Assembly (NCBI RefSeq): GCF_000219915.2 | Contig: NC_017964.1 | Coordinates: forward strand, 682,001 to 746,000 | Origin: Advenella kashmirensis WT001 | Lineage (GTDB): Bacteria > Pseudomonadota > Gammaproteobacteria > Burkholderiales > Burkholderiaceae_B | Reading direction: 5' to 3' | DNA length: 64,000 nt | Shown here: piece by piece, positions 34,792 to 57,828 of the stretch | Layout: each line of letters begins with the position of its first letter | Numbering within the stretch: the stretch's first letter is position 1 | Position numbers and translations under genes: made by a program | The notes under the pieces: generated by a model | Database searches by the model: none | What the model saw: only the letters and a program-made list of their open reading frames with translations | Told to the model about the DNA's origin: nothing

Positions 34792-34860
34792 TCCTCGTTC
34801 CCTGTGTCTGTCTGTTGAAAGTGTTGGATTTTACGGAAAAGTAAAACAGATGAATATAAG

Positions 34861-34944
34861 GGTTAACTCTTATAAATGAAGGTTAACGTTTTGATTTGAT
34901 GTGCATATTGTTTTTCATTTTTCTATTTTTAAGCGGGGTTAACC
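34861..34944. promoter_or_regulatory. Three GGTTAAC sites upstream of putP (candidate PutA operators)
   Basis: GGTTAAC occurs at 34861-34867 and 34881-34887, and the full palindrome GGTTAACC at 34937-34944, all in an AT-rich 150-base stretch upstream of the putP start (34791). The same motif occurs three times upstream of putA (57746-57828). PutA here carries an N-terminal ribbon-helix-helix DNA-binding domain, the known put repressor module, so these are candidate operators. The E. coli operator core is GTTGCA, so the motif would be a different one. Confidence 0.6.
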
Positions 34945-35062
34945 TTAAAATCAACCCGGTTCTCCGATTTGGGCTGTGCGCTGCGCCATAACCTGGCTCT
35001 TCAAAGAGCTGGCCCTGGCAACCATGCCGGTGAGCTGTTCTGGCCGGCCCGCTAAAAGAAAT

Positions 35063-36097
35063 TTATAGCTTTTCGCGCAATTCGTAATCAATAACGACAT
35101 CGCGCGCGTCGCCGGCGCTGTCTGGCCGCAACCCCATCCACGTACCCAGTCCCAGCGGCGAGGCTTGCCCCAGACGAATGCCCTTGATGTCTTCTTTTCT
35201 GAGTACGATCTCCGCATCCCAGTTCAACTCGATCCCCACATAATGGCGCAGCCAGTGGGTCAGTTGCTTTGCCTGGCGTGTGCCGGGCATGAATTGATCA
35301 AATTCAGAGCGCGTAAGCGGGCCCAGCGAAAGGCGAAATTTATGCTGTGCATCGCGCACGGAGCTGCCCAGAATCGTATCCTGGCCCAGTCCCATGCTGC
35401 CATTGAGACCCAGCTGCTGCGATGGGTGCAATTGGATCCATTGCGGCACAAATTCCTTTAGGCTGACGTTGATGTTGAAGAAGGTTCTCAGTATTTGGAT
35501 AATGCCTTCCGGATTGCGTGTCTGGCGCACCAGGTGGCCGGCAAAAAAATACTTGGCGTGATCCATGATGGAGTCACGCTGTTTCAACGAATCCTGCCCC
35601 TGATTGATCAGGCTGGCAACATGACGACTGAAATTTTCTTCGGGACGATCCAGGCTGACTGTGCTTTGCGCATCTGCCCAGGCCCGGTAAAAAAGTGCAA
35701 TCAGGCGATGATGGAAAATATCGGCAAAGGCCGAGAGTGTGTGGTCCCGATGATGTACGATCCGCTCGCGCACGTATTCGGTCAGATGCAAGGGTAATGG
35801 GCCGTTAGGACCAAACAGCCCGTAGCTCAGAATGGAAACAACGGGCGGACCGTCTTTATCACGGTCGACATCACAAATGGTGGATGGCGCGAACGCCATG
35901 GACGGTTCCTGGCGCAGCCGCACCGGTTCGCGCGAGGGCAGCGAATCGCGGCCCAGCGGCTTGCGTGTGCCGCTGCGGGCGTCCAGCCAGCGCAATACAT
36001 GATACAGGCCGAAGCGATACGGGTCTGCTTCAAGCTTCTGCCAGAAGTCCGGCGGCAGCGTATTGGCCGGGGTTACAGGATCCGAAGGTGTATCCAT
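35063..36097 (-). CDS. tssG: Type VI secretion baseplate protein TssG
   Basis: A 344-residue TssG (ImpH/VasB) homologue, part of the T6SS baseplate wedge with TssE, TssF and TssK. Family features are FWQKLEADPYRFGLYHVLRWLDAR at the start, the PSREPVRLRQEPSMAFAPSTI block, GLFGPNGPLPLHLTEYVRERI, DIFHHRLIALFYRAWADAQ and the late LGLGTWMG. In most T6SS loci tssG directly follows tssF. Here no tssF is adjacent, and the upstream neighbour is a methyltransferase in the opposite direction. tssG therefore heads a short minus-strand unit of its own, separate from the plus-strand tss genes. Confidence 0.92.
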   Translation of the reverse strand: MDTPSDPVTPANTLPPDFWQKLEADPYRFGLYHVLRWLDARSGTRKPLGRDSLPSREPVRLRQEPSMAFAPSTICDVDRDKDGPPVVSILSYGLFGPNGPLPLHLTEYVRERIVHHRDHTLSAFADIFHHRLIALFYRAWADAQSTVSLDRPEENFSRHVASLINQGQDSLKQRDSIMDHAKYFFAGHLVRQTRNPEGIIQILRTFFNINVSLKEFVPQWIQLHPSQQLGLNGSMGLGQDTILGSSVRDAQHKFRLSLGPLTRSEFDQFMPGTRQAKQLTHWLRHYVGIELNWDAEIVLRKEDIKGIRLGQASPLGLGTWMGLRPDSAGDARDVVIDYELREKL

Positions 36098-36319
36098 GCG
36101 GTTGTGGTACCCGTCAAAAGGTGTATAAGATAGCGTGATGAAATGACATGGCGGTTGCAGCCAGTGTACCCGAAAGCTTAATATTGTGTAAGGTGACCGC
36201 CCTGAGGATATCAGATACGGAGAACAAGGCGCTATCTGCAGGTTTGGCAGATGTATGCTACTGCCCGGGCGCGGGCGGCAAGCGCATCAGCGTCTCGCCC
36301 CAATGCGTTTGAGGGATAA

Positions 36320-37046
36320 ATGGCACAGAATATTTACGATAATCCTGGTTTTTTCGCTGGCTACGTTCAATTGCCCAGGCAGGTCCTTGGCCTGGAAGGG
36401 GCGCCGGAATGGCCAGCGATCCGGGCGCTCTTGCCTGATCCGACCGGCAAACAGGTTGTCGATCTCGGTTGCGGCTTTGGCTGGACCGCACGCTGGTTTC
36501 GCCAGCAGGGGGCGGCCTCGGTATTGGGGCTGGACCTATCGCGGAACATGATCCAGCGCGCGCGGGCAGAGACTGCAGATGCCGCTATTGAATATCGAAT
36601 CGCCGATCTGGACACCCTGACGCTTGCTCGGGCTAGCTTCGATATTGCCTACAGTGCATTGACCTTTCACTATGTGCAGGATTTTGATCGCCTTGCGCGC
36701 CAGATCACAAGTGCCTGCAACCTGGCGGGCATCTGGTCTTCTCGATTGAGCATCCGATCTTCATGGCCGCCGCCGCCGCTCATTGGATTAGTGATGAGCA
36801 GGGCCGTAAAACCTGGCCGGTCAACGGATACGCCCGGGAGGGCGAGCGCCGCACAGACTGGTTCGCCACCGGCGTATTGAAGTACCACCGGACAATCGGC
36901 ACAACGTTGAATGCCTGATTGCTGCGGGTTTTCGCATTCAGGTCGTGCAGGAGTTCGCACCCACTGCCCAACAGATTGAGCAACTACCGCAACTGGCAGA
37001 GGAGCTGGAACGTCCTATGATGCTGATTGTGTCGGCGACAGCGTAA
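36320..37046 (+). CDS. Class I SAM-dependent methyltransferase (two frameshifts)
   Basis: Small-molecule methyltransferase of the Methyltransf_11/25 type. The SAM-binding motif I is VVDLGCGFGWTARWFRQQGA, followed by VLGLDLSRNMIQRAR and the motif II/III region FDIAYSALTFHYVQDFDRL. The frame breaks at CC 36714-36715 and at CC 36914-36915. Adding one base at each gives ALQPGGHLVFSIEHPIFMA, then TTLNALIAAGFRIQVVQEFAP and a 242-residue protein ending at TAA 37044-37046. It sits between tssG and clpV but has no known role in T6SS. The substrate is unknown. Confidence 0.8.
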
Positions 37047-37247
37047 CGGTTGCTGCGGACAAAGCCATTTCTTGTCTTAGGGTGCTCAATACGCAGGCCG
37101 GATCGGCGCGTTTACATTTGGCAAAACTTTAGAGTTCGAAAACCTTCACGGATACACGTAACATACAGGACATCATTTTCACAGGCAGGTCATATCTTTC
37201 GGCTACGCTTTCCCATTCACAAATGACAGCAAGCAAAATAAACAACT

Positions 37248-39874
37248 ATGTCTGAAATTAATCGCAGCGATCTTTTTGGAAAACTTGACACCCTGCTGTA
37301 CCGCGCACTGGAAGGCGCCACAGCATTTTGTAAACTTCGCGGTAACCCTCATGTGGAACTGGTGCACTGGCTTCATCAGATCATGCATGAGCATGACAGT
37401 GATCTGCAGAAAATAATTCGTTATTTCGAACTCAATCCCGATCAGCTGGAGCGCGGCATTGTCGCCACCCTGGACGAACTGCCGCGTGGCGCTTCCTCGG
37501 TTTCCGATTTGTCGGAGCACCTGGATAACGCGGCCGAACGTGCCTGGGTATATGGTTCGCTCAAGTATGGCGAAGCGCGGATCCGCAGCGCGCATCTGAT
37601 TCTGGGCATTCTCAAGACCCATTCTCTGCGCAATGTGCTCTATGGTATTTCATCAGAGTTCAAGAAAATCACGCCGGATGTACTGGCCGACCATCTGCCG
37701 GCTATCGTCAAGGACTCTGTCGAGCAGCAGGATAGCGCTGCCTTGTCAGATGGTGGCGCAGCAGCGCCTGCTACCGGGGCCAGCGGCAGGTCTGCGTTGG
37801 CACAGTACGCGGTAGACATGACCGCCCGGGCGCGTAACAATGAAATTGATCCGGTATCCGGTCGTGATGAAGAAATCCGGCAGATTGTCGATATCCTGAT
37901 GCGCCGTCGTCAGAACAATCCATTGCTCACCGGCGAAGCCGGTGTCGGCAAAACCGCTGTGGTTGAAGGATTGGCGCTGCGGCTGGCCAGCGGCGACGTT
38001 CCGCCTTCGCTGCGCGAGGTGTCGCTGTATTTACTGGATATCGGGCTGTTGTCTGCCGGCGCGAGCATGAAGGGTGAATTTGAATCGCGACTGCGTCAGG
38101 TCATAGACGAAGTGCAGGCCAGTGAAAAGCCGATTGTACTGTTTATAGACGAAATCCATACCTTGATTGGCGCAGGCGGTGCTGCTGGCACGGGCGATGC
38201 GGCCAATCTGCTCAAACCCGCGCTGGCGCGCGGTCAATTGCGTACCATCGGCGCTACGACCTGGGCCGAGTATAAGAAGTACATAGAAAAAGACCCCGCC
38301 CTGACGCGCCGCTTTCAGGTGGTGCAGGTGCACGAACCGGCCGAAGCCCGCGCGCTGATTATGTTGCGTGGCCTGGCCGGCAGGCTGGAGTCGCACCATC
38401 AGGTGCTGCTTCTGGATGAAGCGATTGATGCCGCCGTGCGACTGTCGCACCGCTATATTCCGGCGCGCCAGCTTCCCGACAAGGCAGTGGCGCTGCTGGA
38501 TACGGCGTGCGCCCGTGTGGCGGTCAGCCAGCACGCCCAGCCGCCAGCCGTAGAGGATTGTCGGCGGCGCATAGAGCATCTGCAGATCGAGCGCGATATT
38601 GCGCAGCGGGAATTGCAGGTCGGTGTCGGCAGCGAGGCACGCATCGCTAACATCGACAGCGACCTGGAGGTCGCGCGTGACAAGCTGGGCCATCTGGAAG
38701 ATAACTGGCGGACCGAGCAGGAGCTGGCCGCCCGGCTGTTTGAGTTGCGCCAGATATTACGTGATGAGGATACCAGCGAGCAACTGCGCAACGACACCCT
38801 GACCGCGCTGCGGCAGGTGCAGCAGCAACTGGAAACCCAGCAGGGCGAAACGCCCTGATTTTTCCGTCGGTGGACGCCAATGCCGTTGCCGCTGTCGTGG
38901 CAGACTGGACGGGCATTCCTGTGGGCCGAATGGTCAAGGACGAGGCCAGTTCGGTATTACAGTTGTCCGACTCGCTGGAAAAACGCGTTATTGGCCAGCG
39001 TGATGGGCTGGATGCCATCACGCGCCGTATCCAGACGTCCCGTGCCCGTCTTACCGATCCAAATAAGCCGGTAGGGGTGTTCCTGCTTTGCGGCCCCAGT
39101 GGCGTGGGCAAGACCGAGACGGCGCTGGCGCTGGCTGAAACGCTTTATGGCGGCGAGCAGAATCTGATCTCCATTAATATGAGCGAGTTCCAGGAAGCAC
39201 ATACCGTTTCCACGCTTAAGGGAGCACCACCCGGCTATGTTGGTTATGGCGAAGGCGGTGTGCTGACCGAAGCGGTGCGGCGCCGCCCCTATAGCGTGGT
39301 CCTGCTCGATGAGGTTGAGAAGGCGCACGCCGATGTGCATGAAATTTTCTTTCAGGTATTCGACAAGGGCTGGATGGAAGACGGGGAAGGGCGCTATATC
39401 GACTTCAAAAACACCGTGATTATTCTGACCTCCAATGTCGGGACGGATCGTATTGTGGATCTGTGCAAGGATCCTGATTTGATGCCCGATGCCGAAGGGC
39501 TGACCGGCGCCTTGCGTGAGCCCCTGCTGGGCGTATTTCCTGCGGCGCTGCTGGGTCGACTGGTGGTGGTGCCATATCTGCCGCTATCGGATGAGATGCT
39601 GGGTCGCATCGTGCGTCTGCAACTGGATCGTATCAAGGTACGTCTGCAGCAAAATCACAATATTGATTTTGAGGTTACTGACGCTGCAGTCTCGCAGATC
39701 GTTGGACGCTGTACTGAAGTGGAATCCGGCGGGCGGATGGTGGATGCGATTCTAACCAATACGGTATTGCCTAAAGTGAGCCAGGAAATTCTGATGAGCA
39801 CCATCGAAGGCCGCAGTTTGGCCCGGTTGTCCCTGGATGCGCAGGACGGCGAGTTTGTCTATCAATACAGCTGA
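37248..39874 (+). CDS. clpV: T6SS ATPase ClpV/TssH (one frameshift)
   Basis: AAA+ unfoldase of the ClpB/Hsp100 class that disassembles the contracted TssB/TssC sheath. The N-terminal ClpV domain (residues 1-165) starts EINRSDLFGKLDTLLYRALEGATAFCKLRGNPHVELVHWL. The first AAA module has Walker A LLTGEAGVGKTAVVEG and FIDEIHTLIGAGGAAG; a coiled-coil middle region follows, then the second AAA module with LCGPSGVGKTETALALAE and VVLLDEVEKAH. The frame breaks at CCC 38853-38855. One added C joins GETPLIFPSVDANAVAAVVADWTGIPVGRM and yields 875 residues, the usual ClpV size. A terminator follows the stop. It is set apart from the tssJKLM run by two minus-strand genes. Confidence 0.93.
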
Positions 39875-39903
39875 AAATCAATTCAGTTGCAATGAAGATT
39901 GAA

Positions 39904-39941
39904 GAAATGCCCGCTCATTAAATTGCAGCGGGCATTTTTTT
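39904..39941. terminator. Terminator after clpV
   Basis: AAATGCCCGCT (39904-39914) pairs with AGCGGGCATTT (39927-39937) and is followed by a T run on the plus strand. On the minus strand the stem is followed by TTTCTTC, so it may also serve the converging FHA gene. Confidence 0.85.
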
Positions 39942-40014
39942 GAGGATTCGATCCGGACGGTGGCGCATCTGTCGACGGGATGTCTTGCCAGGCATCTTAT
40001 CGTTGCCGGGCGTG

Positions 40015-41091
40015 TTATTTTTTGTCCGGGTCTTTGTCTTTGTATCCGGAATGCACTGCGCGCTGCAGTGTATCAAGAATATTATCCTGCTTGTGACTGT
40101 CCAGGGCGGTATCTTTGTTCAGGGTAGTCGGACTGTCGTCGCTGAATATGGTGTAGCGATCTTTGTCTGCGCCGTCGTTAGGCAGCGCATCCAGTGGGTC
40201 TCCATCGATGGATGGATGATGCATGCCTTCCGGCCTGAGCAGTTCTACGGGATTATGATGATTGCGATTGGTGGCCGATTCCATGTCAAATGGATGTCGT
40301 TCATCGGCAGCGCTGCCGCCCACCGGCAGTACACCAGGACCGCTGAGCAGATCCTTGAAAATGTCGTCGGGGTTTTCTTCCGGCACAGGCGCTGCTGGCG
40401 GAGTGTTGCCCGCATCGGGGGGCTGGGCCGCATTTGCCTTTTCCGGCGCCGCATGCGATATCGTCGTGTTGTCTCCCAGGGGTGCGACCGTGGTGTTGGG
40501 TACGGGCGCCGGGGGCGGCATCCTGTTAATGGGCGTGCCCAGCGGGTGTTCTTCAGGATAGAGATCAGGTTGTGCTGCGCCGGCGGCCTGCTCGACGGGA
40601 GCCTGATAGGCCGGATGCCAGGTGGGCAGTTGCTCGTCAATGTCGGCAGTAGCGGGCGTTGCCCCCGGAAAGGCACGGGCCGCTGTCGTCGCCCCTGCAG
40701 CTGCAGCCGTGCCGGCAAATGCCGCCGTATCGTAAGGGGTTGCGCTCAGGGCAGTGTCGTCTATGGCGGCCGGTTCAGAGGCAGGCGGTCCGTCAACGAC
40801 AATCAGATAATCACCCACGGTAATCCGGTCGCCTTTGTGAACACTGGCTTCCTGGGACAGTCCGAGTGGCGTGTCGTTGACTGCAACGCGGCTCATGCTG
40901 CTCATATTGAGTACTGTGCCAGCACCGCCTGCTTCCTGCATGCGAACAATCGCTTGCAGGGTGCTTAGCTCGCCCGACGGGTCGGGCAGGTTCAGATCAT
41001 TCTGCTGGCCACGGCCAATCGTGCCGCCGGGCGGCTGCAACTGACAGGTAAACGTGGTGGCATTGTGCAGATGTTGTACGGTCAGTTTCAT
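40015..41091 (-). CDS. T6SS-associated FHA-domain protein
   Basis: A 358-residue protein with an N-terminal forkhead-associated domain (about residues 1-100), which binds phosphothreonine. Motifs are GGTIGRGQQNDLNLPD, an FHA Gly-Arg variant, and the later VAVNDTPLG with HKGDRITVGDYLIVV. The remainder is Pro/Ala/Asp-rich and probably unstructured; the conserved C-terminal TagH domain of longer T6SS FHA proteins was not seen. FHA proteins in T6SS loci act in threonine-phosphorylation control with a kinase. The only kinase-like gene here (49770-52578) appears catalytically dead. The gene converges with clpV. Confidence 0.8.
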   Translation of the reverse strand: MKLTVQHLHNATTFTCQLQPPGGTIGRGQQNDLNLPDPSGELSTLQAIVRMQEAGGAGTVLNMSSMSRVAVNDTPLGLSQEASVHKGDRITVGDYLIVVDGPPASEPAAIDDTALSATPYDTAAFAGTAAAAGATTAARAFPGATPATADIDEQLPTWHPAYQAPVEQAAGAAQPDLYPEEHPLGTPINRMPPPAPVPNTTVAPLGDNTTISHAAPEKANAAQPPDAGNTPPAAPVPEENPDDIFKDLLSGPGVLPVGGSAADERHPFDMESATNRNHHNPVELLRPEGMHHPSIDGDPLDALPNDGADKDRYTIFSDDSPTTLNKDTALDSHKQDNILDTLQRAVHSGYKDKDPDKK

Positions 41092-41149
41092 GATGGGTTC
41101 TGCTCCTTGACTGGAGACGGTTGTGGCGTCCCCGTCGTGCCGCGCCGGC

Positions 41150-41638
41150 CTACTTTGTCAGAGGACGGATGGGCGTAATGCTGCCGCCAGCCGGTGTGGT
41201 GCCCGGATTTGTTGTTTTGCTAGGCTGATGCTCTGCCTGGACTCCCTCAAAAACCGGTCCCCATGACGGGTGTGATTTCTCGGCGGGAAGCAATGTGAAA
41301 TTGGGATTCAATGTCAGAATTTGTTCAAAAGTGCTGGCGCAACTACGCTTGGCTTCTGTCAGGCACTCGCTGAATGCCTTGTACTTGAGTGCCGTCGTGT
41401 GCAGCGGAACCGAGCCGGTGCTCAGTGCCGGCGTGTTCGTTACTTGCGTAATGACCGCGTCGTATTGTCCTGCCATAAAACTTTCACGTATCGGCCGAAT
41501 CTGTACTTCTTCAGATGAGGACAGTGCAGTGGAATCGGAGCTGCTCCACAGGGAGCACGCCGACGTCAGGACACCAGCAGCAAGTACACCGGACAGCAGA
41601 AATACACGTGAAGCGTTCATTTTTTTGAATTGAGACAT
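41150..41638 (-). CDS. T6SS-associated lipoprotein, TssQ-like
   Basis: Small outer-membrane or periplasmic lipoprotein of 162 residues from ATG 41638. A signal peptide ends in the lipobox LTSAC (cysteine at about residue 28), followed by a Ser-rich spacer. The mature part contains a short helical repeat region (SFMAGQYDAVITQVTNTP... TALKYKAFSECLTEAKRSCASTFEQILTLNP) resembling a TPR-like fold. A Thr/Pro-rich tail closes it. Size and position beside the FHA gene fit the TssQ family of betaproteobacterial T6SS loci. Alternative starts are at 41620 and 41677, and none has a clear ribosome binding site. It is divergent from tssJ. Confidence 0.65.
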   Translation of the reverse strand: MSQFKKMNASRVFLLSGVLAAGVLTSACSLWSSSDSTALSSSEEVQIRPIRESFMAGQYDAVITQVTNTPALSTGSVPLHTTALKYKAFSECLTEAKRSCASTFEQILTLNPNFTLLPAEKSHPSWGPVFEGVQAEHQPSKTTNPGTTPAGGSITPIRPLTK

Positions 41639-42166
41639 GTTGATGTAATAGAAATATTTAATAATGCTGTTTGACATAGCCTGTTAATGCAAATGAAATA
41701 TACCGTTTTATTACGGCGGATGACAAATGCAATTGCAACTGCAGATCAGTCACTGTGCTGCCATTTCTGCGAAGGAAATGTCCCTCATTGGAGTGTTTAA
41801 GGCAACAGGACTGTGTACCAAATATATTAATACCTGTAGATGACAATAACATGTTAAATCGACAGCGTCGTGCTTAAGAAACGTAAATTATGTAACGTAT
41901 AAGTAACTTTGGAAAAATACTGTTTAATTTAACTACATATTAGTCAATTTCAGTAAGAGTATAGGTTTTTGTGCTTGATGTTTTGGTCTGTCACAAACAC
42001 AATGCAAATTGACGGATTTGTCGGGCGTGCAGGCGCTGACAGACAGGACTGGCGGGCGCAAATGCTCTTGTAAACTGCGCCTTTAAGGCGGCTATTGCGG
42101 CTTATAGTGGCTAATATGCGGTTCATGATCAGGCACTTGCACGCTATTTGAATGAGGACATGGCAA
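41639..42166. promoter_or_regulatory. AT-rich divergent region upstream of tssJ
   Basis: About 530 bases between the TssQ-like gene and tssJ. Much of 41640-41990 is strongly AT-rich compared with its neighbours (for example near 25-30% G+C around 41881-41940). This is typical of silencer-bound promoters and of horizontally acquired secretion loci. It should hold the promoter of the tssJKLM operon. No clear operator was recognised. Confidence 0.45.
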
Positions 42167-42694
42167 ATGACATTTATTTATAACAAGATCATGAAGCTGG
42201 GGACGGTCGGCCTGATTGCCGCCGGTGTGCTGGCCGGATGCGCATCTACCGAATCCAAAATGGCTGTCCCCTATATCGTAGAGTTAAATGCTGATAGTCA
42301 GGTAAACCCTAATGCCTCGGGCAAACCTTCGCCGGTTAAGGTTACTGTCTATGAACTGAAGTCCACCAATGCTTTTGATACGGCAGACTATTTTGCCCTT
42401 ATGAAGGACCCGCGCGCAGTACTTGGCGATCAGATGCTTGAAGTCAATTCCCGTATCATCAAGCCGGGCAGTACTGAAGAAATCAAGGCATCGGGAAGCA
42501 CCCAGGCCAAGGCGCTGGGCATTGTTGCCTCGTACCGCGATCTGAACAACAGTCAATGGCGCCTGGTAGTAGATCTGCCCGAAGCCGAGACGACCAATTT
42601 CTACAAATTCTGGCAGTTCTCTCCTGACGAAAAGCGTATTCGCATCGATGTGCAGAGAGCCGCTGTCAACGTCAACAAAACAGAACCAAAATAA
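42167..42694 (+). CDS. tssJ: T6SS outer-membrane lipoprotein TssJ
   Basis: A 175-residue lipoprotein that anchors the T6SS membrane complex to the outer membrane and binds TssM. The signal peptide has lipobox VLAGC (Cys 25), and the mature protein is a compact beta sandwich. Landmarks are SPVKVTVYELKSTNAFDTADYFALMKD and the late RLVVDLPEAETTNFYKFWQ. ATG 42167 is chosen because GAGGA lies eight bases before it; ATG 42152 and ATG 42191 are also in frame. It is the first gene of a tight plus-strand operon tssJ-tssK-tssL-tssM-tagF. Confidence 0.9.
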   Translation: MTFIYNKIMKLGTVGLIAAGVLAGCASTESKMAVPYIVELNADSQVNPNASGKPSPVKVTVYELKSTNAFDTADYFALMKDPRAVLGDQMLEVNSRIIKPGSTEEIKASGSTQAKALGIVASYRDLNNSQWRLVVDLPEAETTNFYKFWQFSPDEKRIRIDVQRAAVNVNKTEPK

Positions 42695-42709
42695 ATTGCA
42701 GATTGTTTT

Positions 42710-44052
42710 ATGAGCATAAAAGATAAAGTAGTCTGGTCAGAGGGGATGTTTCTTCGCCCCCATCATTTTCAGCAGTTCGAACGATATCTGGAACACAACC
42801 TGCGAGTACGCATCGAAAGTATCACAAGCGTGTTCTGGGGGTTTCAGGACCTGGATATTGATGTTGATGCCCTGGCGCTGGGCAAGGTGGCGCTGAAAAA
42901 GGCCACGGGCCTGTTTCCCGATGGCACGCCGTTCAGCTTTGACGCCGAGTCTGCGCCCTTTGCCCTGGAAGTGCCGGCCGGCACGCTGGACAAACGGGTA
43001 TACCTGGCGATCCCGCGAGTACGCGAAGGCGCCGAAGACGTTGTGTTCGAAGAGACGCCCGACTCTCTGGCGCGCTATAGCGTCATTGAAGATGAAGTTG
43101 TCGACACCTGTGAAGTGTCTCTTGGAACAGCGGTGGTGCAGGTCGGACGATTGCGTTTTCGGCTGATGCTGGAATCCGATTTCGGTGATGAGTGGATCGG
43201 CATGCCGCTGGCCTGGATTACCGAACGCAGCGCCGACAATAAGGTCGTTCTTGACTTCACTTATATCGCGCCGGTCCTGTCGAGCAATGTGAGTTTTGCC
43301 CTGACCAGCTTTATCCGGGAACTCTTCGGACTGCTCAATGCCCGCAGTGAACTGCTGGCGACACGTCTGAATCAGCCGGGGCGTGGCGGTGTTGCCGAAG
43401 TCTCGGAGTTCCTTATACTGGAAACCATCAATCGCTATCGTGGCGCCTTATGGCATATGATCACGCTTGGCAATGTGCATCCGGAGCGCATTTTTCATGA
43501 CTTTCTGATGCTGGCCAGCGACCTGGCCACCTTTACCGGCACGGGAAAACGAATGGAAACGTTCCCCGCTTACGTACACGATAATTTGCGGCTTAGCTTT
43601 GAACCGCTGATGCAAGTGCTGCGCCGGGCGCTGACCACCATTCTGGAAGAGCAGGCCATTCGCATACCGCTGCACGACAAAGGTCAGGGGCTGCGGGTGG
43701 GCAGATCACCGACCCGCACCTGTTGCAGTCTGCCGAATTTATTATTGCCGTTCATGCCGATATGCCGGCTGAGCTTACGCGGACCCGTTTTCCGGCACAG
43801 GTCAAATTGGGACCGGTCGAGCGTATCCGCGATCTGGTGCATCTGCAGTTGCCGGGCGTGTCGCTCAAGCCGGTCACCAATGTACCGCGTCAGTTGCCGT
43901 ACAGCGCGGGGCATATTTATTTTTCTCTGGAAAAAACCGGAGATATGTGGACACAACTGGAACGCACCGGCGCGCTGGCGTTGCATCTGGCTGGGGACTT
44001 TCCGGGGCTGACACTTGAGTTCTGGGCGGTCAGAGAGGATCGGGACAGATAA
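42710..44052 (+). CDS. tssK: T6SS baseplate protein TssK (one frameshift)
   Basis: TssK links the baseplate to the TssJLM membrane complex. The start KVVWSEGMFLRPHHFQQFERYLE is strongly conserved, as are GMPLAWITERSADNK-like and AEVSEFLILETINRYRGALWHM blocks. The frame breaks near 43699-43702 (GGGTGGGCAG). One added base gives RVGQITDPHLLQSAEFIIAVHADMPAEL and the typical C-terminus with GDFPGLTLEFWAVRED. The restored protein is 447 residues, normal for TssK. It starts 15 bases after tssJ and ends two bases before tssL. Confidence 0.93.
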
Positions 44053-44054
44053 AC

Positions 44055-48974: not shown

Positions 48975-48976
48975 AT

Positions 48977-49720
48977 ATGGGCCAAATCAGTATTGACCAA
49001 CTTTCCGAATCGCTGGGTTGGTATGGAAAAATGCCTTCCAGTGGCGATTTTGTGCATCGACGACTCGATCAGAGCCTGATCGGCTGGTGGCACCGCTGGC
49101 TCAGCTCCGGTCTGGTTGCCATGCATGAGTCGGTATTGCTGTCGGCAGAGCAGGAATACCTGAGTGCACCTATCTGGAATTTCCTGATTCCCGCCTCGCT
49201 GGGCTGCGATATGGTGCAAATGGGCTGTCTGGCGCCAAGCCGCGACCGGGTGGGGCGCGCCTATCCGTTGCTGGCTGTTTTATATGTGCCGACAACGCAA
49301 TATGAAGCGCAGCAGGTATCGGGCTCGGGGCGGTTTTACGAACATCTGGGACGCAGCCTGCTGGCTGCCGTCGGACATGGTTGCTCGGCCACCCAGTTCG
49401 AGCAGAATATCCAGGGGGCTCGCGGCACCTTGACGCAAATGCTGACACGCGCCTCTACGCAAATGGTAGAAGACGATGGCAGCAGTGATATTCTGGACAT
49501 TCTGAACGGCGGCCATGAGACGGCACCAATTGAAAAACTGGACCAGAACGACTCGCGCTGGCCGGAGCTGGCGCTATGCTTTAACAGTGACGCACACAAT
49601 AGTTACTGGTGGACCAACCAGGCCAATGGAGCTGCGCAAAAGTCCATGGTGCATGGCGGTGCGTTGAATATCCCGCTGTTCAATTCGCTGTTTATCACAC
49701 ACACCAATTTCAGATTGTAG
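48977..49720 (+). CDS. tagF: T6SS-associated protein TagF
   Basis: A 247-residue TagF family protein, a post-translational regulator that represses T6SS firing in Pseudomonas by acting on the FHA protein. The conserved start WYGKMPSSGDFVHRRL is diagnostic, with GWWHRWLSSGL and the ASLGCDMVQMGCLAPSRDRVGRAYPL core and the late SYWWTNQ. ATG 48977 sits two bases after the tssM stop, with a GGGGAAGGG ribosome binding site inside the end of tssM. The FHA gene of this locus is its probable functional partner. Confidence 0.92.
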   Translation: MGQISIDQLSESLGWYGKMPSSGDFVHRRLDQSLIGWWHRWLSSGLVAMHESVLLSAEQEYLSAPIWNFLIPASLGCDMVQMGCLAPSRDRVGRAYPLLAVLYVPTTQYEAQQVSGSGRFYEHLGRSLLAAVGHGCSATQFEQNIQGARGTLTQMLTRASTQMVEDDGSSDILDILNGGHETAPIEKLDQNDSRWPELALCFNSDAHNSYWWTNQANGAAQKSMVHGGALNIPLFNSLFITHTNFRL

Positions 49721-49769
49721 CTATTTACCGATTAATGCATTTGACAAGCCTGGCATAGGAAACAACATT

Positions 49770-52578
49770 ATGGCGACCTCGTTACAGGACCTTATACGCA
49801 ACGTCGACCCCGCATGGCAGCCTCTGGAAAAGACCGGGCTGGGGACAGGATCTGCATCACAGGGACAGCTGGAAGATTTGGTGCTGGATTTACTACCGCA
49901 ACTGAAGGCACTGCATGCACAGCAGTATGTCTATGGCCTGTGGTCCCTGCAAACGGTGTTTCTGGATCCGGTAGGCCGTGCCAAGCTGCTACCCGGTGTC
50001 GGTCAGCCTTTTGTCAAGCAGGGAACTCACGTTGTACCGGGAACGGAGCCCTTTTCCGCCATCGAACTACAGACCGATGATGCGGCCTGGCGTATTGGCC
50101 CCTGGACCGATGTTTACGGCCTGGGCGCCCTGCTGCGGGCCATGATTTGCGAACAGACGCCGCAAAGTCCGGTGCGTCGTTTTGTCAAGGACACGCAGGA
50201 GCCGCTGGCGGCAGCAGCACCCGCAGGCTATTCGCGTCAGTTTCTGCGTACGGTGGATCTGAGCACGGTGCTGCAGTCTGCCTTGCGTTTGCAATCGGTT
50301 GATGAACTATCAGCATGATGGGCTTGTCGGCCTCCAGCCAGAGTATGCCGGCGGCGCCTTCGACATCGGGCGGCATTACGGTGCCCGGTGCAGTTGCAGG
50401 TGGCCTGGCCGCCCAGGGAATACTGAGCCCGGCAGCGGGCAGCGGCAGAGGTGAGGGCGAGGGCGCGGGAGAAATTGAAGGAAGCGGGCAGCGACCTGTT
50501 GCGCAGCAGGAATCGACGCATCAGGCAGAGCAGGCGCGACAGGCGCAAATCGCTCAGGAAGAGGCTCGGCGTCAAGCCAGGAGGCAGAAGCCGCGAAGAT
50601 TGAACAGGCTCGGCAAGCCCAAGCCAGTAAGCAAGCGGCCAGGCAGGAACAGATCCGGGCGGAACAGACAAGAGCGGAACAGGCAAGAGCAGAACAGGCC
50701 AGGATAGAACAGGCTCGGGCAGAACAGGGCGCGGGCAGAACAGGTGCGAAGCCAGTCGGGCGGCATTGCGGCCACGGCATCCCCGAGCGAGCGAGCGCAC
50801 GAATCGCAACCAGATCACGATGACAATGAACGCGCCAGACTGGCCACCATGGGCGTAGCCGGTGCGATGGGCGCTGCTCATGTGGCAAATGCCCAGAGCC
50901 GTGCTGATGATCAGGCTGCGGCTGACCATGCTGGGAAAAGCAACGAGACTGCATCATCGGACACGCCGACAAATGCAGGCGCTGGCGACCAAAAAGCCGC
51001 GGCTGATCATCGTGGCGCTGCGCCAAATGAGACAGGCAGCAGCGGCGGATCCGGTTCTCCACCCGATGCCTCCGAGGGCGGTAGCTCTGCATCTGCCCCA
51101 CCGCCGCGCGAGGATAAAAAGAATGCGCCGGTATTGTTGATTGCGCTTGTGCTGGCGGCCATCGCAGCAGGCGCCTATTTCGGTTTTGGTGGTCAAAAAG
51201 AGACCGATACACCCCCCGTGGCGACGACCAATGAACCGGCAACGCCGCAGGCGCCCGCTACTACCGCAACGCCATCAGCGGCGACGACCGATCAGGCTGG
51301 CGAGACTTCGTCTGCCACGGCGCAGACGCCTTCCGAGGCTGCGCCAGCAACTGATACGGCTTCAACGGCCGATAATGCTGCATCTACAGACGCCGGCAAT
51401 ACCGAGAGCCTGGCCGCATCGGGTGCGACCGGACAGCCTTCGCCGGCTGCTGCGCCAACGGATGAAGCATCAGGTCAGAACCAGGCCGCCAGCAATCCAG
51501 CGCCTGTGACCAATTCGGCACCAGCAGCGGCGACCACGACGCCGGCCCCTGCCGAATCGGCTTCGGGTATGGACAATGCGCAGTCGGCTGCAGCAACAGC
51601 GGGCACGACGCCGTCGGCAACGGGCGCCAGCCCCATGCCAACCGAGCAAGGCAATGCATTGAGCGCCATGGGTGAGACCGCAACACAGACGCCAGGCGCT
51701 GCGGGCAGCACCGCTGCCAGCGATCAGGCCGCTGCAGAACAGGCGCGTCGTGAGCAGGAGGCGCGACGCATTGAAGAAGCAACCAAGGCAGAAGAAGCGC
51801 GTCTGGCTGCGGCAAGCCAACAATCGCCATCAGCGACAGCACCTGCAGCAGAGACGGCCGCTGGTACAACTACCAGCACCTCAACTGCATCTGATACAGC
51901 AGCCTCATCGACAACGTCTGATACAGCCCCCCAGACCGCAGCATCAGGCGCACCAGTACGTTTGTTCAGGAGACGCCCTCCGCTGGCGCGGGCAGCACCA
52001 GTTCGACTGCCGGCGCAGCGACGCCGACAGAAAATGGCGCGCCAGCCGCTACCGGGTCTGAAACTGCAACCAATAACGCAGGCGGTACTACTACTGCAGC
52101 CACGGCTGCGAGTGCCGCCGGTGCTGCAAGCGCGGCTGCTGCGGACCAACCATCCACAGCGCAAAACGCAGCGCCGGCTTCAGGCACAAGCGAGTCCGTT
52201 GAAATGAAAGCGGCTGATGCCGCGCGCGAAGAGGAGGCGAACCAGGCCAAAGAGCTGGCAGCGCTGCAGAAAGCGCGCGAGCAGGATGCGCGCCTGAAAA
52301 AAGAGCGTGAACGCCGGCTTGCGGCCCAGGCACGTGCCGAGCGAAGTGCAGATACTACACGCAGTACTTCAAGAGGAACGGTTTCCTTTGTAATACGACC
52401 CTGGGGCAATGTGTTCATCAACGGGCGTTCTCGCGGCGCGAGCCCGCCATTTCGCAGTGTGCGGTTGGCGCCAGGCACCTATAATGTCATGATCACAAAC
52501 GGGGATTTGCCGCGTTATGTCCGGGTGATTACCGTCAAGGCGGGTGAAAATATCACCGTTGTACACCAATTCCAGTAA
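49770..52578 (+). CDS. T6SS-locus pseudokinase with coiled coil, membrane segment and PEGA domain (about four frameshifts)
   Basis: A large multidomain protein that I read as one gene. Residues about 40-180 resemble the C-lobe of a Ser/Thr kinase (LHAQQYVYG, LQTVFLD, GTEPFSAIEL, GPWTDVYGLGALL). The HRD/K/N and DFG positions are replaced (L57, S59, T62, P75), and the N-lobe with P-loop and lysine is missing. A linker with repeated RAEQAR units (coiled coil), one transmembrane helix (VLLIALVLAAIAAGAYFG) and a long Ala/Thr/Pro/Ser-rich stretch follow. A second charged helix precedes a C-terminal PEGA domain (VSFVIRPWGNVFINGRSRG). Frame changes fall near 50306-50311, 50580-50583, 50727-50729 (an apparent extra G) and 51963. 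The repaired length is about 936 residues. Low-complexity sequence makes the exact joins uncertain. Confidence 0.65.
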
Positions 52579-52619
52579 CATGCGAGGTACGATCAATCAC
52601 TAATACGGATGTTCACGGA

Positions 52620-53831
52620 ATGAAAAGGGTAGTATTGCGCAGGTTTTTGCTTCCAGGAGCCTGTGTCGGATTCTTGCTGCTGCATGCTTTTCCGGCCTCG
52701 GCACAAAGTGCGGGTGGCTATAAGCCCGAGTATTCGCTTTCCTTTGTATCCGATGAACGGATTGCCATCGGGCGCACGGCCAAACGCTGGCGCGAGCTGG
52801 TGGCAGAAAAAACCGAAGGGCGCGTCAACATCCGCATGTATCCCAACGCTTCGCTGGTCAAAGGCGAGCAGACCCGTGAAGCGACGGCGGTGCGCCAGGG
52901 GGTGGCAGATATGGCTGTCGCTTCGGCCAGCAATTGGTCCAGCCAGTTTCGTGCGCTGTCTATATTTTCCCTTCCTTTTTTTGTTCCCGATATTGATGGG
53001 ACAGCGGCATTGATTCGTGGCAACCTGGGCAGCCTGGTGCGTGACAATATGGACAAGGCGGGCATTGTGACCCTGGCCTGGGGTTCCTCGGGCTATCGTC
53101 AGCTAAGTAATGCGCTGCGCCCGGTGCAGGCGCCTGCCGACTTGAAAGGCATGCGCATCCGTGTCATTGGCTTGCCGCTGTTCATGGACTTTTTCAAAGC
53201 CCTGGGCGCTGCGCCGGTGCAATTGAATCTGACCGGGGTGCCCGATGCGCTGCAGAAAAAGGCCATCGATGGCCAGGATAATCCGCTGTCGGTGTTTACC
53301 GGTTTCAAGTTCAATGAAATGGGCCAGAAATACCTGACGGTGTGGAATTATCCGGCAGAGCCGATTTTTATCGCAGTCAATAAAAATGTCTGGAATAACT
53401 GGTCGCGTGAAGACCAGCAACGGGTGCGCGAAGCAGCCGAGCAGGCCATGAGCGAAACCGCGCCAATTCTGACATCGCAGGCAGCAGCCCAGGCCGTGGA
53501 CGTAACGGTTGGCCAACTGGAGCAGGCCGGTGTGCAAGTGACGCGCCTGACTGATCAGCAGAAAGCGGCATTCAAAAATGCCGCGGCCGGGGTGCTGCAG
53601 AATTGGTCCGAAAGAATCGGCCAGGATTTGATTACCATCGCCAATGCCGATATCAAGCGCGGGCCGACATTGCCGCCAGGCAGTGATCCGGCTATTGTGC
53701 CGGACTCTGCCGTACCGGCTTCGCCGAATCCGGAGCCGCCGCCCGTTGATGGGGCCGCCCCTGCGGCAACGGGCGCCGAACCGGATAAGGCAGGGCAGAG
53801 TACACCTGCCGCTACCGGTACTGGTGGCTAA
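52620..53831 (+). CDS. DctP-type TRAP solute receptor, orphan
   Basis: A 403-residue periplasmic protein with a signal peptide (to about residue 28, FPASAQ) and the DctP fold. Landmarks are RWRELVAEKTEGRVNIRMYPNASLVKGEQTREATAVRQGVADMAVAS, LSIFSLPFFVPD and LKGMRIRVIGLPLFMDFFKALGAAPVQL, followed by GVPDALQKKAIDGQDNPLSVF. After residue about 345 it has an unusual Pro/Ala-rich tail of some 50 residues. No DctQ or DctM membrane genes are next to it. It lies directly after the T6SS locus on the same strand, 41 bases from the PEGA gene stop. It may be a receptor working with a distant transporter or, less likely, a T6SS-linked periplasmic protein. Confidence 0.85.
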   Translation: MKRVVLRRFLLPGACVGFLLLHAFPASAQSAGGYKPEYSLSFVSDERIAIGRTAKRWRELVAEKTEGRVNIRMYPNASLVKGEQTREATAVRQGVADMAVASASNWSSQFRALSIFSLPFFVPDIDGTAALIRGNLGSLVRDNMDKAGIVTLAWGSSGYRQLSNALRPVQAPADLKGMRIRVIGLPLFMDFFKALGAAPVQLNLTGVPDALQKKAIDGQDNPLSVFTGFKFNEMGQKYLTVWNYPAEPIFIAVNKNVWNNWSREDQQRVREAAEQAMSETAPILTSQAAAQAVDVTVGQLEQAGVQVTRLTDQQKAAFKNAAAGVLQNWSERIGQDLITIANADIKRGPTLPPGSDPAIVPDSAVPASPNPEPPPVDGAAPAATGAEPDKAGQSTPAATGTGG

Positions 53832-53856
53832 CGCCAGCGCACTTGCCCGGCAACCC

Positions 53857-56800
53857 TTAAGCGATTGTCATCAGGCTTGCATTGCCGCCTGCCGCTGCGG
53901 TATTAGTGCTGATGCTTTGTTCGTGCACCAGGCCGCTGACGGCATAGCGACGCCCCTGGGCGATTTCATCGGTTTGCAGGCCCTGGGCAATAACGATAGG
54001 CCCTTTTTTTGCGGCCAGTTGCAAGTTCAACCGGCGCAGGGTATCGCCATCGCCTTCGAACAATGCCGCATCCAGGGCCGCCTCGTCGATCCGTTCTTCG
54101 GCAATAAATTCAATGCGCTGACGGTTTTCAGCATTGGTGACCGTGCCAATCCATTCCCGTACTGAAGGTGCATCCACAAACAAGGCCTGGTTGCCGGTTT
54201 CTAGAATTTGCTCCAGCTGCAGGCGTGCGCCTTCGATTGATGCCGGCCAGGCCAGCACGGTACCCCGGGGCACCAGGCGATAGACATTGGTTTCCCCGGT
54301 GGGGCCCGGCAAGAGCGTGCCGGCAGGATTGATACCGGGCAGGTCGATGCCTCTTGGCATAGCGTCGTTGCCCTGGGAAAGCAGGCGATACAAGTACAGA
54401 GGCCGCCCGCTTTGGGGCCGGTTCCCGACAGGCCCTGGCCGCCGAAAGGCTGAACGCCTACCACAGCGCCCACGATATTACGGTTGACATAAATATTACC
54501 CGCATGGATACGGTTGCTGACACGGGCGATGGTTTCATCGATGCGCGAATGGATGCCGAAAGTCAGACCGTAGCCGGTCGCATTGATTTTGTCGACCAGA
54601 GCATCCAGCTCCTGGCGTTTGTAGCGTACAACGTGCAGCACGGGGCCGAATACTTCGCGCTCAAGCTCGCTGATGTCATTGAGTTCGATGATTGCCGGTG
54701 AGACAAAAGTGCCTTTTTCGGTGGCCGCGTCCATGGGTAATTGCTCCACCACATGTCCGGACTGGCGCATTTTAAGGATATGGCGTTCGATAATCTGGCG
54801 CGCCTGCGCATCGATGACCGGGCCGACATCGGTCGACAGCAGGTCGGGGCAGCCAACGGATAATTCCTTCATGGCGCCCTTGATCATGGTCAGTACGTGA
54901 TCGGCTGCGTCTTCCTGAATACACAACACGCGCAGGGCAGAGCAGCGCTGACCCGCAGAATCAAACGCGGAGTTCAGGACATCGTAGACAACTTGCTCTG
55001 CCAGGGCAGAGGAGTCTACGATCAGGCGTTCTGGCCGCCGGTTTCGGCAATCAGCGGGATCGGATGGCCGTGATTGTCCAGGCGGCCGGCCAGTTTACCG
55101 GCAATAATGCGGGCCACTTCGGTGGAACCGGTAAACATCACGCCACGAATGTCCGGGTGCGACACCAACTGGTCGCCCACGGTTTCACCTGCGCCAGGCA
55201 GCAGTTGTACCGCTTCTTTGGGGATGCCGGCTTCATGCAGGATGGCCACGGCCTGCGCGGCAATCAATGGCGTTTGTTCGGCCGGCTTGGCCAGTACGGT
55301 GTTTCCGGCAGCCAGCGCGGCGCTGACCTGTCCGGTAAAGATCGCCAGCGGAAAGTTCCAGGGGCTGATGCACAGTACCGGTCCCAGTGGACGATGATGG
55401 TCTTCATTGAAGCTGTCTTCGATCTGGTCTGCATAATAGCGCAGGAAGTCTACGGCTTCGCGCACTTCTGCAATGGCGTTGGGCAGCGATTTGCCGGCTT
55501 CGCGCACGATCAGCCCAAGCAAGGGCTGCATGCGTGACTCGAGCAACTGCGCAGCGCGGCGCAAGGCACGGGCCCGGTCTTCGATGGGCGTGGCTTGCCA
55601 GATGGGCGCCATTGTGGTGGCTGCGGCCATGGCCTGGTCCACATCCTGCACACTCGCTTCAATCACTTGCCCGACCACATCGCGATGGTCGGCGGGGTTG
55701 AGCAGCGGCTTGCGGTTTGCCGTGTCGGCCTCGCCGCTGTCAGCGTTATACAGCGTGGGTGCAGCCAACCAGGGTTGGGTCGCGCCATTGAGCAGCGCTG
55801 CGGCAAGCGAGCCCAGGCGATGTTCATTGCTCAGGTCCAGGCCGCTGGAATTGCGTCTGCCGGGTTTGCCATCGATGCTGTACAAATCGCGCGGCAGCGG
55901 AATTTTCTCGTGCGGTGCCCCCAGCGGCGTAATGGTGGTGGCCACCTCAATTGGATTGGCAACCAGCGTATTGATATCTATGCTGTCGTCGCCGATCTGA
56001 TTGACAAATGACGTATTGGCGCCGTTTTCCAGCAGGCGTCGCACCAGATAGGCCAGCAATGTTTCGTGTGTGCCAACAGGCGCATAAATGCGGCAGGGGC
56101 GATTCAGCTTTTTGCTGCCGACCACTTCGGAATACAGCGGTTCGCCCATGCCATGCAGACATTGGAATTCGTATTGGCCCGGGTAGTAATTGTTTCCTGC
56201 CAAGTGATAAATGGCAGCCAGCGTTTGCGCATTGTGCGTGGCAAATTGCGGGTATACGGCGTCGGGCGCAGACAGCAGTTTGCGGGCGCACGCCAGGTAG
56301 GAAACATCGGTGTAGACCTTGCGCGTATACACTGGATAGCCTTCCAGGCCGTCCAGTTGCGCGCGTTTGATTTCGGTATCCCAGTAGGCGCCTTTGACCA
56401 GGCGGATCATCAGGCGATGGCGGGTGCGGCGGCCAAGATCAATGACGTAATCAATGACATGCGGCGCGCGTTTCTGATAGGCCTGGATCACAAAGCCGAT
56501 GCCGTTCCAGCCTTCGAATTCACGGGTCGCGCAAAGCGCTTCCAGCAGATCCAGTGAGAGCTCAAGCCGGTCGGCTTCTTCGGCGTCGATGTTCAGACCC
56601 ACATCGTAGGAGCGGGCCAGGCGCGTTAGGGCAACCAGGCGCGGCAGCAGCTCGCTCATGACGCGATCGCGCTGGGAGCGGGAGTAGCGGGGGTGCAGGG
56701 CGGACAGTTTGATGGAAATGCCCGGCCCCTCATAAATGCCACGTCCGCCAGAGGCTTTGCCGATGGCATGAATCGCCTGTTCGTATGATTCATAGTAACG

Positions 56801-57679
56801 TTGCGCATCGGCCGCCGTGGTGGCGGCTTCGCCCAGCATATCGTAACTGTAGCGAAAGCCCTCGGCCTCGAATTTGCGGCTGTTGGCCAGGGCAGACGAA
56901 ATGGTCTGGCCCGATACAAATTGTTCGCCCATCATGCGCATGGCCATGTTCACGCCCTGCCTGATAAGCGGTTCGCCGCCTTTGGCGATCATGCGTGTGA
57001 GGGCTTTGGACAAATTCTGCTCGCTGTTGACGGCCACCAGTCTGCCCGTGAGCATAAGCCCCCAGGTAGCGGCGTTCACGAACAGGGAGGGAGAGCTGCC
57101 CATATGCGATTTCCAGTCGCCATGGCTGATTTTGTCGCGGATGAGCGCATCGCGCGTTGCGCGGTCCGGGATGCGCAGCAGCGCTTCGGCCAGACACATG
57201 AGCGCGACGCCTTCCTGGCTGGACAGGGCAAATTCCTGAATCAGTCCTTCGACACCGCCGCCGGGGCTTTTTTCTTTAAGCGATTTGACCAGCTTGATCG
57301 CCAGTTCCCGTGTCTGTTCTGGCTTGACCAATGAGGCCTGTTCCAGCAGCAATGGCACGCATTCAGGCTCGGGCCGGCGATAGGCCGAGGTAATGGCGGC
57401 GCGCAGCACCGATTGCGGCTGTACGTCCTGGCCAAACTCGTAAAAGGGCGGCTTGCGGTTGTCCTGTGGGTAGGTCACGGCGCCGTCGCTGTCTGTGGCG
57501 GCTGGCGCCAAATGCCGCAGTTCGTCGGGCGTCAGACCGCGTTCGATCTGTTCCAGATACGTAATTAACGCCTGTTTATGCAGCCAGTGCGGCGTACAGT
57601 TCAGTTTGTCTGCGTGATATTGAAGGCGATTTTTCAGGTCGGTATCGACCTTGATGCCTAGTGTAGTAGTCGTAGCCAT
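53857..57679 (-). CDS. putA: Trifunctional PutA: proline and P5C dehydrogenase with DNA-binding domain (two frameshifts)
   Basis: Oxidises proline to glutamate in two steps and represses the put genes. Residues 1-48 form a ribbon-helix-helix DNA-binding domain (TTTTLGIKVDTDLKNRLQYHA). The FAD-dependent proline dehydrogenase barrel covers about 180-500 (GISIKLSALHPRYSRSQ; RLVKGAYWDTEIKRAQ). The P5C dehydrogenase module follows (LGPVLCISPWNFPLAIFTGQ). The frame breaks at GG 55025-55026, restoring GGQNALIVDSSALAEQ and the catalytic Cys region SAGQRCSALRVL, and near 54401-54404, restoring GGPLYLYRLLSQGNDA. The repaired length is 1274 residues. ATG 57679 is preferred over a TTG at 57685. Three GGTTAACC motifs lie upstream. 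Confidence 0.95.
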
Positions 57680-57745
57680 ATGCAACTCAAGTCTGGTTCG
57701 GGTGATGACGCTGAGCGTACCGAATCTGAGGCTAAAATAATATTA

Positions 57746-57828
57746 GGGTTAACCCTTAATTTTTAGGTTAACCTTTGGATTTATTGAATTATTTGTTTGT
57801 ATTTGATCTGACGCGGTTCGGGTTAACC
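57746..57828. promoter_or_regulatory. Three GGTTAACC palindromes upstream of putA (candidate PutA operators)
   Basis: The perfect palindromes AGGGTTAACCCT (57745-57756) and AGGTTAACCT (57765-57774) and a third GGTTAACC (57821-57828) lie 65 to 150 bases upstream of the putA start. The same core is found three times upstream of putP. The region is AT-rich and promoter-like. Autoregulation by the RHH domain of PutA is the simplest reading. Confidence 0.65.

Follow-up and report, generated by a model that had tools for sequence, protein, structure and literature searches.

A shortened form of the PutA operator is proposed upstream of putA and putP in Advenella kashmirensis and other Alcaligenaceae

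PutA is known to be both an enzyme and a repressor. In the closest described system, that of Escherichia coli, a trifunctional PutA carrying a ribbon-helix-helix (RHH) domain has multiple operators before the neighbouring genes putA and putP, and the residues T5, G7 and K9 of its reading strand read the bases of sites which end in inverted GGT and ACC triplets. A comparable arrangement is found in Pseudomonas, whose RHH PutA (represented by the solved chains 2jxg, 2jxh and 2jxi, which we take to be the P. putida protein) goes along with GGTTGCACC words upstream of putA in all five named loci. The base readout in the PutA-DNA structure 2rbf is given as GGTTGCAC in a table of PMC4655474. In PMC9132996 Lys9 is also stated to be a base-reading residue and to be important for regulation by the PutA of Ralstonia solanacearum, which acts on epsA and signalling genes and differs from the other cases in that it increases expression at epsA. 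We have analysed a stretch of 64,000 nucleotides of Advenella kashmirensis WT001 (NC_017964.1, positions 682,001 to 746,000; hereafter the window), in which putP and putA are each preceded by three copies of a short word whose full form is the perfect 8 base pair (bp) palindrome GGTTAACC. This word looks like a one-base-shortened form of the known PutA operator, shared by most of the Alcaligenaceae sampled, and from the sequence comparisons described below we assign a probability of about 0.85 to the reading that PutA itself is the regulator at these candidate operators of putA and putP. Searches of open-licence papers brought up no mention of GGTTAACC as an operator of PutA.

In comparison with E. 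coli, the locus under study has a PutA of the trifunctional type, the frame of which is broken in this assembly (see below), with its RHH domain, the several candidate sites before both genes, the reading-strand residues T5, G7 and K9 and the inverted GGT/ACC ends, but the centre of the E. coli operator is one base longer: in a half-site notation the classical operator is GGT-N3-ACC and the new word is GGT-N2-ACC. Five GTTGCA sites and no GGTTAACC were counted in the put region of E. coli. The two systems differ also in the position of the genes, which lie 23 kb apart in the window, and in the RHH residues 27 and 33 (E. coli numbering), which are Arg and Ile in E. coli and Cys and His in the PutA of the window. 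Pseudomonas departs from the window in having N3 sites only, with a pair 10 bp apart, together with Arg27 and Ile33. In E. coli, pseudomonads and Burkholderiaceae the operator type is GGT-N3-ACC, mainly GGTTGCACC, whereas the candidate operators of Alcaligenaceae are GGT-N2-ACC, mostly GGTTAACC.

All the motif copies that an earlier note on this DNA had placed upstream of the two genes were found again, one of them displaced by a single base (57747 instead of 57746), and the window scan agrees with its count of four full palindromes at the put genes and one elsewhere. Full copies of GGTTAACC occur at 34937, 57747, 57766, 57821 and 12571, the last falling within the open reading frame (ORF) 11939-12874, labelled LysR in that note; GGTTAAC 7-mers stand at 34861 and 34881, and an additional one, not listed in the note, at 58660. 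In the gene-ward direction the three sites of putP read GGTTAACC, CGTTAACC and AGTTAACC and those of putA three times GGTTAACC, with near-identical centre spacings of 20 and 56 bp at putP and 19 and 55 bp at putA. The five full copies in the window compare with 0.38 expected, and none of 100 shuffles contained five or more. Dinucleotide shuffling of the 200 bp upstream regions (2000 shuffles each) gave on average 0.04 sites for putP and 0.03 for putA, three sites being never obtained. The genome-wide count that had been suggested as a check gave 40 full copies of GGTTAACC, fewer than the 72 of the reversed control word, and thus the 8-mer by itself is not specific. Many of these copies, mapped by simple ORF calls, lie within coding DNA, and the other intergenic ones are solitary (before rplU, between proC-like and livH-like genes and near a HigA-like gene, as judged by eye). 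Full-copy pairs 8-16 bp apart occur once in the WT001 genome, at putA. Genome-wide pairs of the 7-mer were also considered as a signal and rejected as uninformative, since they gave 3 and 2 matches and the reversed control gave 2 and 3.

Conservation of the sites was analysed in ten genomes of the genus, in one of which the upstream region of putP amounts to only 90 bp before the contig end and holds one site. Sites are found at putA in all ten genomes and at putP in all ten. The classical, E. coli-type word, defined as GGTTRYACC on either strand, is absent in its full form within 350 bp of putA in each of the ten and within 400 bp of putP likewise (within 90 bp in the truncated case). Among 200 genomes of the family, at least 147 have a PutA match at E≤1e-200, and we took from 31 genera the upstream regions of 123 PutA genes in which an RHH domain is detectable, to compare them with those of 20 PutA genes that lack it (genera, genomes and loci are designated below by g, G and L). 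This count leaves out sequences at a contig edge (L033, G184) or cut at contig ends (L187, L189, L190), loci of other families (L041, L044) and incomplete matches (G183, G166, G177); L208, which proved to be a broken RHH gene, was dropped from the RHH-less controls, reducing them to 19.

Within 350 bp of the RHH-type putA genes, GGTTAACC is present in 86 of the 123 regions, GGTTRYACC in 58, either word in 104 and both in 40, while in shuffled controls any site occurred in a mean of 2.05 regions and a maximum of 6. In a de novo count of 8-mers GGTTAACC ranks first (86 regions versus 0.85 expected), and GGTTGCAC-type words are among the best 25 results. The word lies within 250 bp of an RHH-type putA in 22 of the 31 genera; in two of them (g1 and g2) all 20 upstream regions have GGTTAACC and lack the full classical word. 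Far upstream of the RHH-type genes (−1500 to −500, 44 loci) there is no GGTTAACC, and the classical word appears twice. None of the 19 RHH-less upstream regions contains either word over about 900 bp searched (nor did any of the 20 before L208 was removed). The sites go with the RHH domain, and not with putA genes generally. The absence of the motif from the put promoters of relatives, put forward as an argument that would speak against the proposal, was not encountered, and both conservation and RHH dependence support the suggestion that PutA of this lineage reads GGTTAACC. The order of G385 yielded five RHH PutAs, of which three are preceded by GGTTGCACC, a fourth by nothing but GTTGCA cores and the fifth by neither word, and a class-wide search returned nearly only RHH-less PutAs.

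The relation between the two words is further seen in how they are arranged. Distances between neighbouring site centres are mostly near 11, 19-23, 31-33, 44 and 55 bp, with outliers at 14, 64 and 74 bp, and for 61 spacings, deduplicated by genus, the resultant is 0.73 at a period of 11, the best of three periods tried. When separated by type, the resultants are 0.66 for new-new, 0.77 for new-old and 0.80 for old-old neighbours, with phases that agree within about 1 bp. The shared upstream regions, together with the agreeing phase, place both words in common arrays on the same side of the helix. The proportion of the two words differs with the type of PutA: in 250 bp upstream of each gene, PutAs with His33 (127 rows) have 195 N2 and 124 N3 words, and those with another residue at this position (82 rows) have 7 N2 and 158 N3 words, counts in which 15 loci, all His33, are included twice.

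The same correlation is seen in the named loci, for which we used the best 80 of 595 candidates, 15 of the 80 being duplicates of loci in the first set. Of these best 80, 58 have Arg27/Ile33, and within this group, which includes Burkholderia, Paraburkholderia, Caballeronia, Trinickia, Pandoraea, Cupriavidus, Pseudomonas, Jeongeupia and Iodobacter, GGTTAACC is never found and the classical word is found in 57; most Burkholderia-type loci have two classical words at about −110 and −88, separated by 22-23 bp. His33 is found in the remaining 22, which without exception belong to the Alcaligenaceae (among them Advenella, Achromobacter, Bordetella hinzii, Alcaligenes, Castellaniella, Allopusillimonas, Paenalcaligenes and Schauerella) and contain GGTTAACC in 20 cases. 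In the joint set without repeats (194 loci), the word is present in 91 of 112 His33 loci and in 2 of 82 non-His33 loci. Over 38 RHH columns the mutual information with the presence of GGTTAACC is highest at position 33 (0.50 bit), followed by position 27 (0.44 bit); at positions 5, 7 and 9 it is about 0, and T5, G7 and K9 are nearly invariant. A comparison of the β-strand with that of E. coli, recommended in the earlier note, revealed no change in the strand itself; it is elsewhere in the RHH domain, at positions 33 and 27, that covariation is observed. Two genomes with two PutA copies each (G132 and G151) show the same association internally, the Cys27/His33 copy having GGTTAACC plus a classical site and the Arg27/Ile33 copy classical sites only.

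The start of the second helix is known to clamp the DNA backbone in RHH proteins. A structure prediction for the RHH domain of the window (mean pLDDT, the predicted local distance difference test score, of 80) places its helices at residues 13-25 and 30-46 in the numbering of the window protein, so that position 27 is predicted to immediately precede the second helix and position 33 to fall within its first residues; the model comprises one chain without DNA and carries no information on contacts. We conjecture that a change at the start of this helix, with the reading strand kept fixed, would be a natural route to accepting half-sites that are one base closer, and residues 27 and 33 may help to accommodate the new spacing. 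In a tree built without the RHH columns by a quick method, His33 arises once, on the stem of a clade of 68 rows (support of 98 in the SH-like approximate likelihood ratio test, SH-aLRT), and GGTTAACC is spread in the same clade; the number of changes counted is one for His33 and seven for GGTTAACC. A possible scenario, which we hold with somewhat less than even confidence, is that in the ancestor of the Alcaligenaceae the gap of the PutA operator was shortened from three to two bases via residues 27 and 33, with a frozen β-strand and the old spacing still accepted, the arrays then being converted site by site. The same tree places extra or alternative putA copies of some family genomes (L177, L178, L179, L183, L184 and L040) outside the main family clade, near gamma-proteobacterial PutA, which suggests horizontal transfer of these copies, in part together with classical operators.

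Taking these results together with the described systems, a PutA dimer would dock via its N-terminal RHH domain on the inverted half-sites GGT...ACC, and several dimers would be accommodated on one DNA face before putA and putP, over or beside the promoter. At both genes the proximal operator lies one base from a −10-like hexamer, which weakly suggests a promoter position, and its occupation would block the promoter. Both genes would thereby be kept off until proline shifts PutA to its enzyme role at the membrane; for trifunctional PutAs, such a response to proline is set out in the abstract of PMC5293562.

A number of observations weigh against this reading of the sites. In the genus itself, a GTTGCA core at 57681-57686 has identical letters in six of the ten genomes; this core may act as an additional weak site or may simply be part of the sequence around the start codon. 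A sigma-70 consensus scan gave no promoter match at the putP and putA sites. In the family, GGTTAACC is absent within 400 bp in 21 of the 112 His33 genes, 17 of them having no site and 4 having classical sites only, and two loci with Arg27/Ile33 (L183 and L184 of g25) have one GGTTAACC besides three classical sites; the genomes of these two loci also hold an Arg27/His33 copy without sites of its own. In g5 pairs formed by GGTTAACC and a classical-type site occur at a reductase gene (G078, G181) and at a major facilitator superfamily (MFS) gene (G107), although each of the four RHH PutAs typed in this genus has Arg27/Ile33, the G181 copy being cut by a contig end and left untyped. The only published footprint of a beta-proteobacterial PutA that was found, that of R. 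solanacearum PutA at epsA (PMC9132996), comprises 25 bases with neither GGTTGCACC nor GGTTAACC. As to the residues, His33 is a single event on the tree, so that its link to GGTTAACC is no proof of cause and may be a matter of shared history; residue 33 was therefore rejected as independent evidence, as one change and one independent pair cannot reach significance.

The word GGTTAACC is also used elsewhere. Full-copy pairs occur in 60 of the 200 family genomes, compared with 2 for the reversed control, and although part of them are at putA or putP, many others belong to a different conserved palindrome, GGTTAACCCTATNATAGGGTTAACC and close forms, of the general type GGTTAACC-CTAT-N-ATAG-GGTTAACC, many copies of which contain TATAAT. 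In the loci examined it lies between an rlmL-like gene (assigned by Pfam for L229, by eye for the others) and a small gene encoding RLTDELERQL..., being found near position 1500 of L229, L230, L231 and L237-L240, and possibly near 1504 of L012, from the genome of the window. This palindrome is present as well in six genomes for which the search detected no RHH PutA (G013, G068, G122, G129, G143 and G217; best E 0.03), and another factor thus probably uses it. The concern that the motif might be common in unrelated regions is therefore justified in part, in so far as this second conserved palindrome is independent of RHH-PutA.

The factor of the second palindrome is the best rival for the put sites: another transcription factor would read GGTTAACC and regulate putA and putP, with PutA binding only the classical GGTTGCACC where present. 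Given that the GGTTAACCCTATNATAGGGTTAACC-type palindrome is widespread away from putA, before the small gene in the loci examined, and that it persists in six genomes without a detected RHH-PutA, some other factor may read GGTTAACC-like DNA. We nevertheless regard such a factor as unlikely at the put genes, as the 20 upstream regions of g1 and g2 would leave PutA without any full site, G078 holds the second palindrome and yet has only classical sites upstream of its Arg27/Ile33 putA, and the RHH-less putA upstream regions with sites are none out of 19. Moreover, the GGTTAACC sites share phase and arrays with classical PutA words, and the centres of the second palindrome are 17-18 bp apart, compared with mostly 11-12 or 19-23 bp in the put arrays.

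That the sites are core promoter or DNA-structure elements, kept for transcription and not operators, is very improbable in our view. In favour of this view, the proximal copy of each gene is one base away from a −10-like hexamer; however, the copies number two or three per promoter and are helically spaced, the 19 RHH-less putA upstream regions are devoid of them, and in related families the classical word is found about as far from putA. An origin of the sites as chance repeats of AT-rich intergenic DNA is hardly credible: the genome does have 40 copies, many of them in coding DNA, but three sites per region were obtained in none of 2000 shuffles, and the occurrence of GGTTAACC at putA in 22 of 31 genera refutes an accidental origin. 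Regulation by PutA itself remains the reading which we prefer for the put sites.

Sites in other proline-linked places are consistent with PutA as the regulator. In g5, GGTTAACC and GGTGCAACC stand at 1501-1531 of L265 and of L266, before a Δ1-pyrroline-2-carboxylate reductase gene (assigned by NF004793 for L265 and by eye for L266), which is a candidate new member of the PutA regulon. In G117 (g27) the site array at L275:705-735 starts a stretch of ATP-binding cassette (ABC) transporter genes upstream of putA and is not directly at putA, and in G108 (g6) the array at L277:627-679 is likewise before ABC-transporter genes upstream of putA, as judged by eye. The pairs at the reductase gene (L265) and at the ABC-transporter genes (L275), being in proline-linked places, count in favour of PutA. 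As regards the His33 genes without GGTTAACC within 400 bp, a pair further upstream was seen in only four genomes (G108, G117, G167 and G199), about 2.9 to 4.4 kb before putA. The g5 pair at the MFS gene (L264:1501-1531, G107) consists of GGTTAACC and GGTTACACC and is flanked by two divergent genes, one MFS (metabolite/H+ symporter-like) and the other MarR-like. At L028, about 160-240 bp upstream of putA, there is a G+C-rich inverted stretch (CCCCCTAGAGGGGG...) that resembles a dispersed repeat.

The features of the window are collected in Table 1. The presence of an RHH domain in its PutA, claimed in the earlier note, is borne out by phmmer matches to the chains 2gpe, 2rbf and 2jxg (E 6e-11 to 2e-10) and by Pfam PutA_1st, and the base-reading strand TLGIKV is present, with T, G and K retained. 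The nearest named relatives, among the best 80 of 595 loci and over the first 213 residues, are Advenella incenata (98%) and Advenella sp. FME57 (97%). In the WT001 assembly the putA gene is split by two frameshifts (54400-55025, minus strand): after a first break, at the end of the piece listed in Table 1, the gene goes on downstream in a different frame and is broken again near 54400. Its RHH and proline dehydrogenase parts are open. The gene forms an open frame of 1278-1293 amino acids in nine relatives of the genus, and the breaks would be either an assembly error or a recent lesion with loss of the Δ1-pyrroline-5-carboxylate (P5C) dehydrogenase part. The codon coordinates of Cys28 and His34 were computed from the start codon at 57679.

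Table 1. Positions in the window of putP, putA, the candidate operators and associated features.
Feature	Coordinates	Strand	Basis or remark
Candidate putP operator, promoter-proximal, AGTTAACC gene-ward	34861..34868	-	sequence; conserved in genus
Candidate putP operator, middle slot, CGTTAACC gene-ward	34881..34888	-	centre 20 bp from first
Candidate putP operator, distal slot, full palindrome GGTTAACC	34937..34944	.	56 bp beyond middle
Candidate putA operator, promoter-proximal, GGTTAACC	57747..57754	.	sequence; conserved in genus
Candidate putA operator, middle slot, GGTTAACC	57766..57773	.	centre 19 bp from first
Candidate putA operator, distal slot, GGTTAACC	57821..57828	.	55 bp beyond middle
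Single classical core GTTGCA directly before putA start codon, outside the three-site array	57681..57686	-	sequence
−10-like TAATAT, one base downstream of promoter-proximal putA operator	57740..57745	-	inferred from sequence
−10-like TTATAT, one base downstream of promoter-proximal putP operator	34854..34859	-	inferred from sequence
putP, sodium/proline symporter	33292..34791	-	TIGR02121, 694.8 bits vs cut-off 515.5
First open piece of putA, with the RHH and proline dehydrogenase parts and the beginning of P5C dehydrogenase	55022..57679	-	start codon 57679
PutA RHH DNA-binding domain, residues 1-48	57536..57679	-	chains 2gpe, 2rbf, 2jxg; Pfam PutA_1st
PutA Cys28 codon (E. coli position 27), second-best covarying RHH position; predicted turn before second helix	57596..57598	-	
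PutA His34 codon (position 33 in E. coli), RHH position with the strongest covariation; residue five of predicted second helix	57578..57580	-	

In respect to what was already known of PutA as an enzyme and repressor, what is new here is the shortened word, the sharing of arrays by old and new words, and a frozen reading head that is accompanied by changed residues 27 and 33. In Advenella, Achromobacter, Alcaligenes, Castellaniella and their relatives the word can be used as a motif of the put regulon, where a search with the classical word alone would miss many put promoters; in the genus of the window it would miss every one, ten at putA and ten at putP. Promoters that carry old operators, new ones or a mixture form a natural series, which is matched by PutA variants, including paralogues within the same genome, and makes the evolution of a repressor's DNA specificity directly testable.

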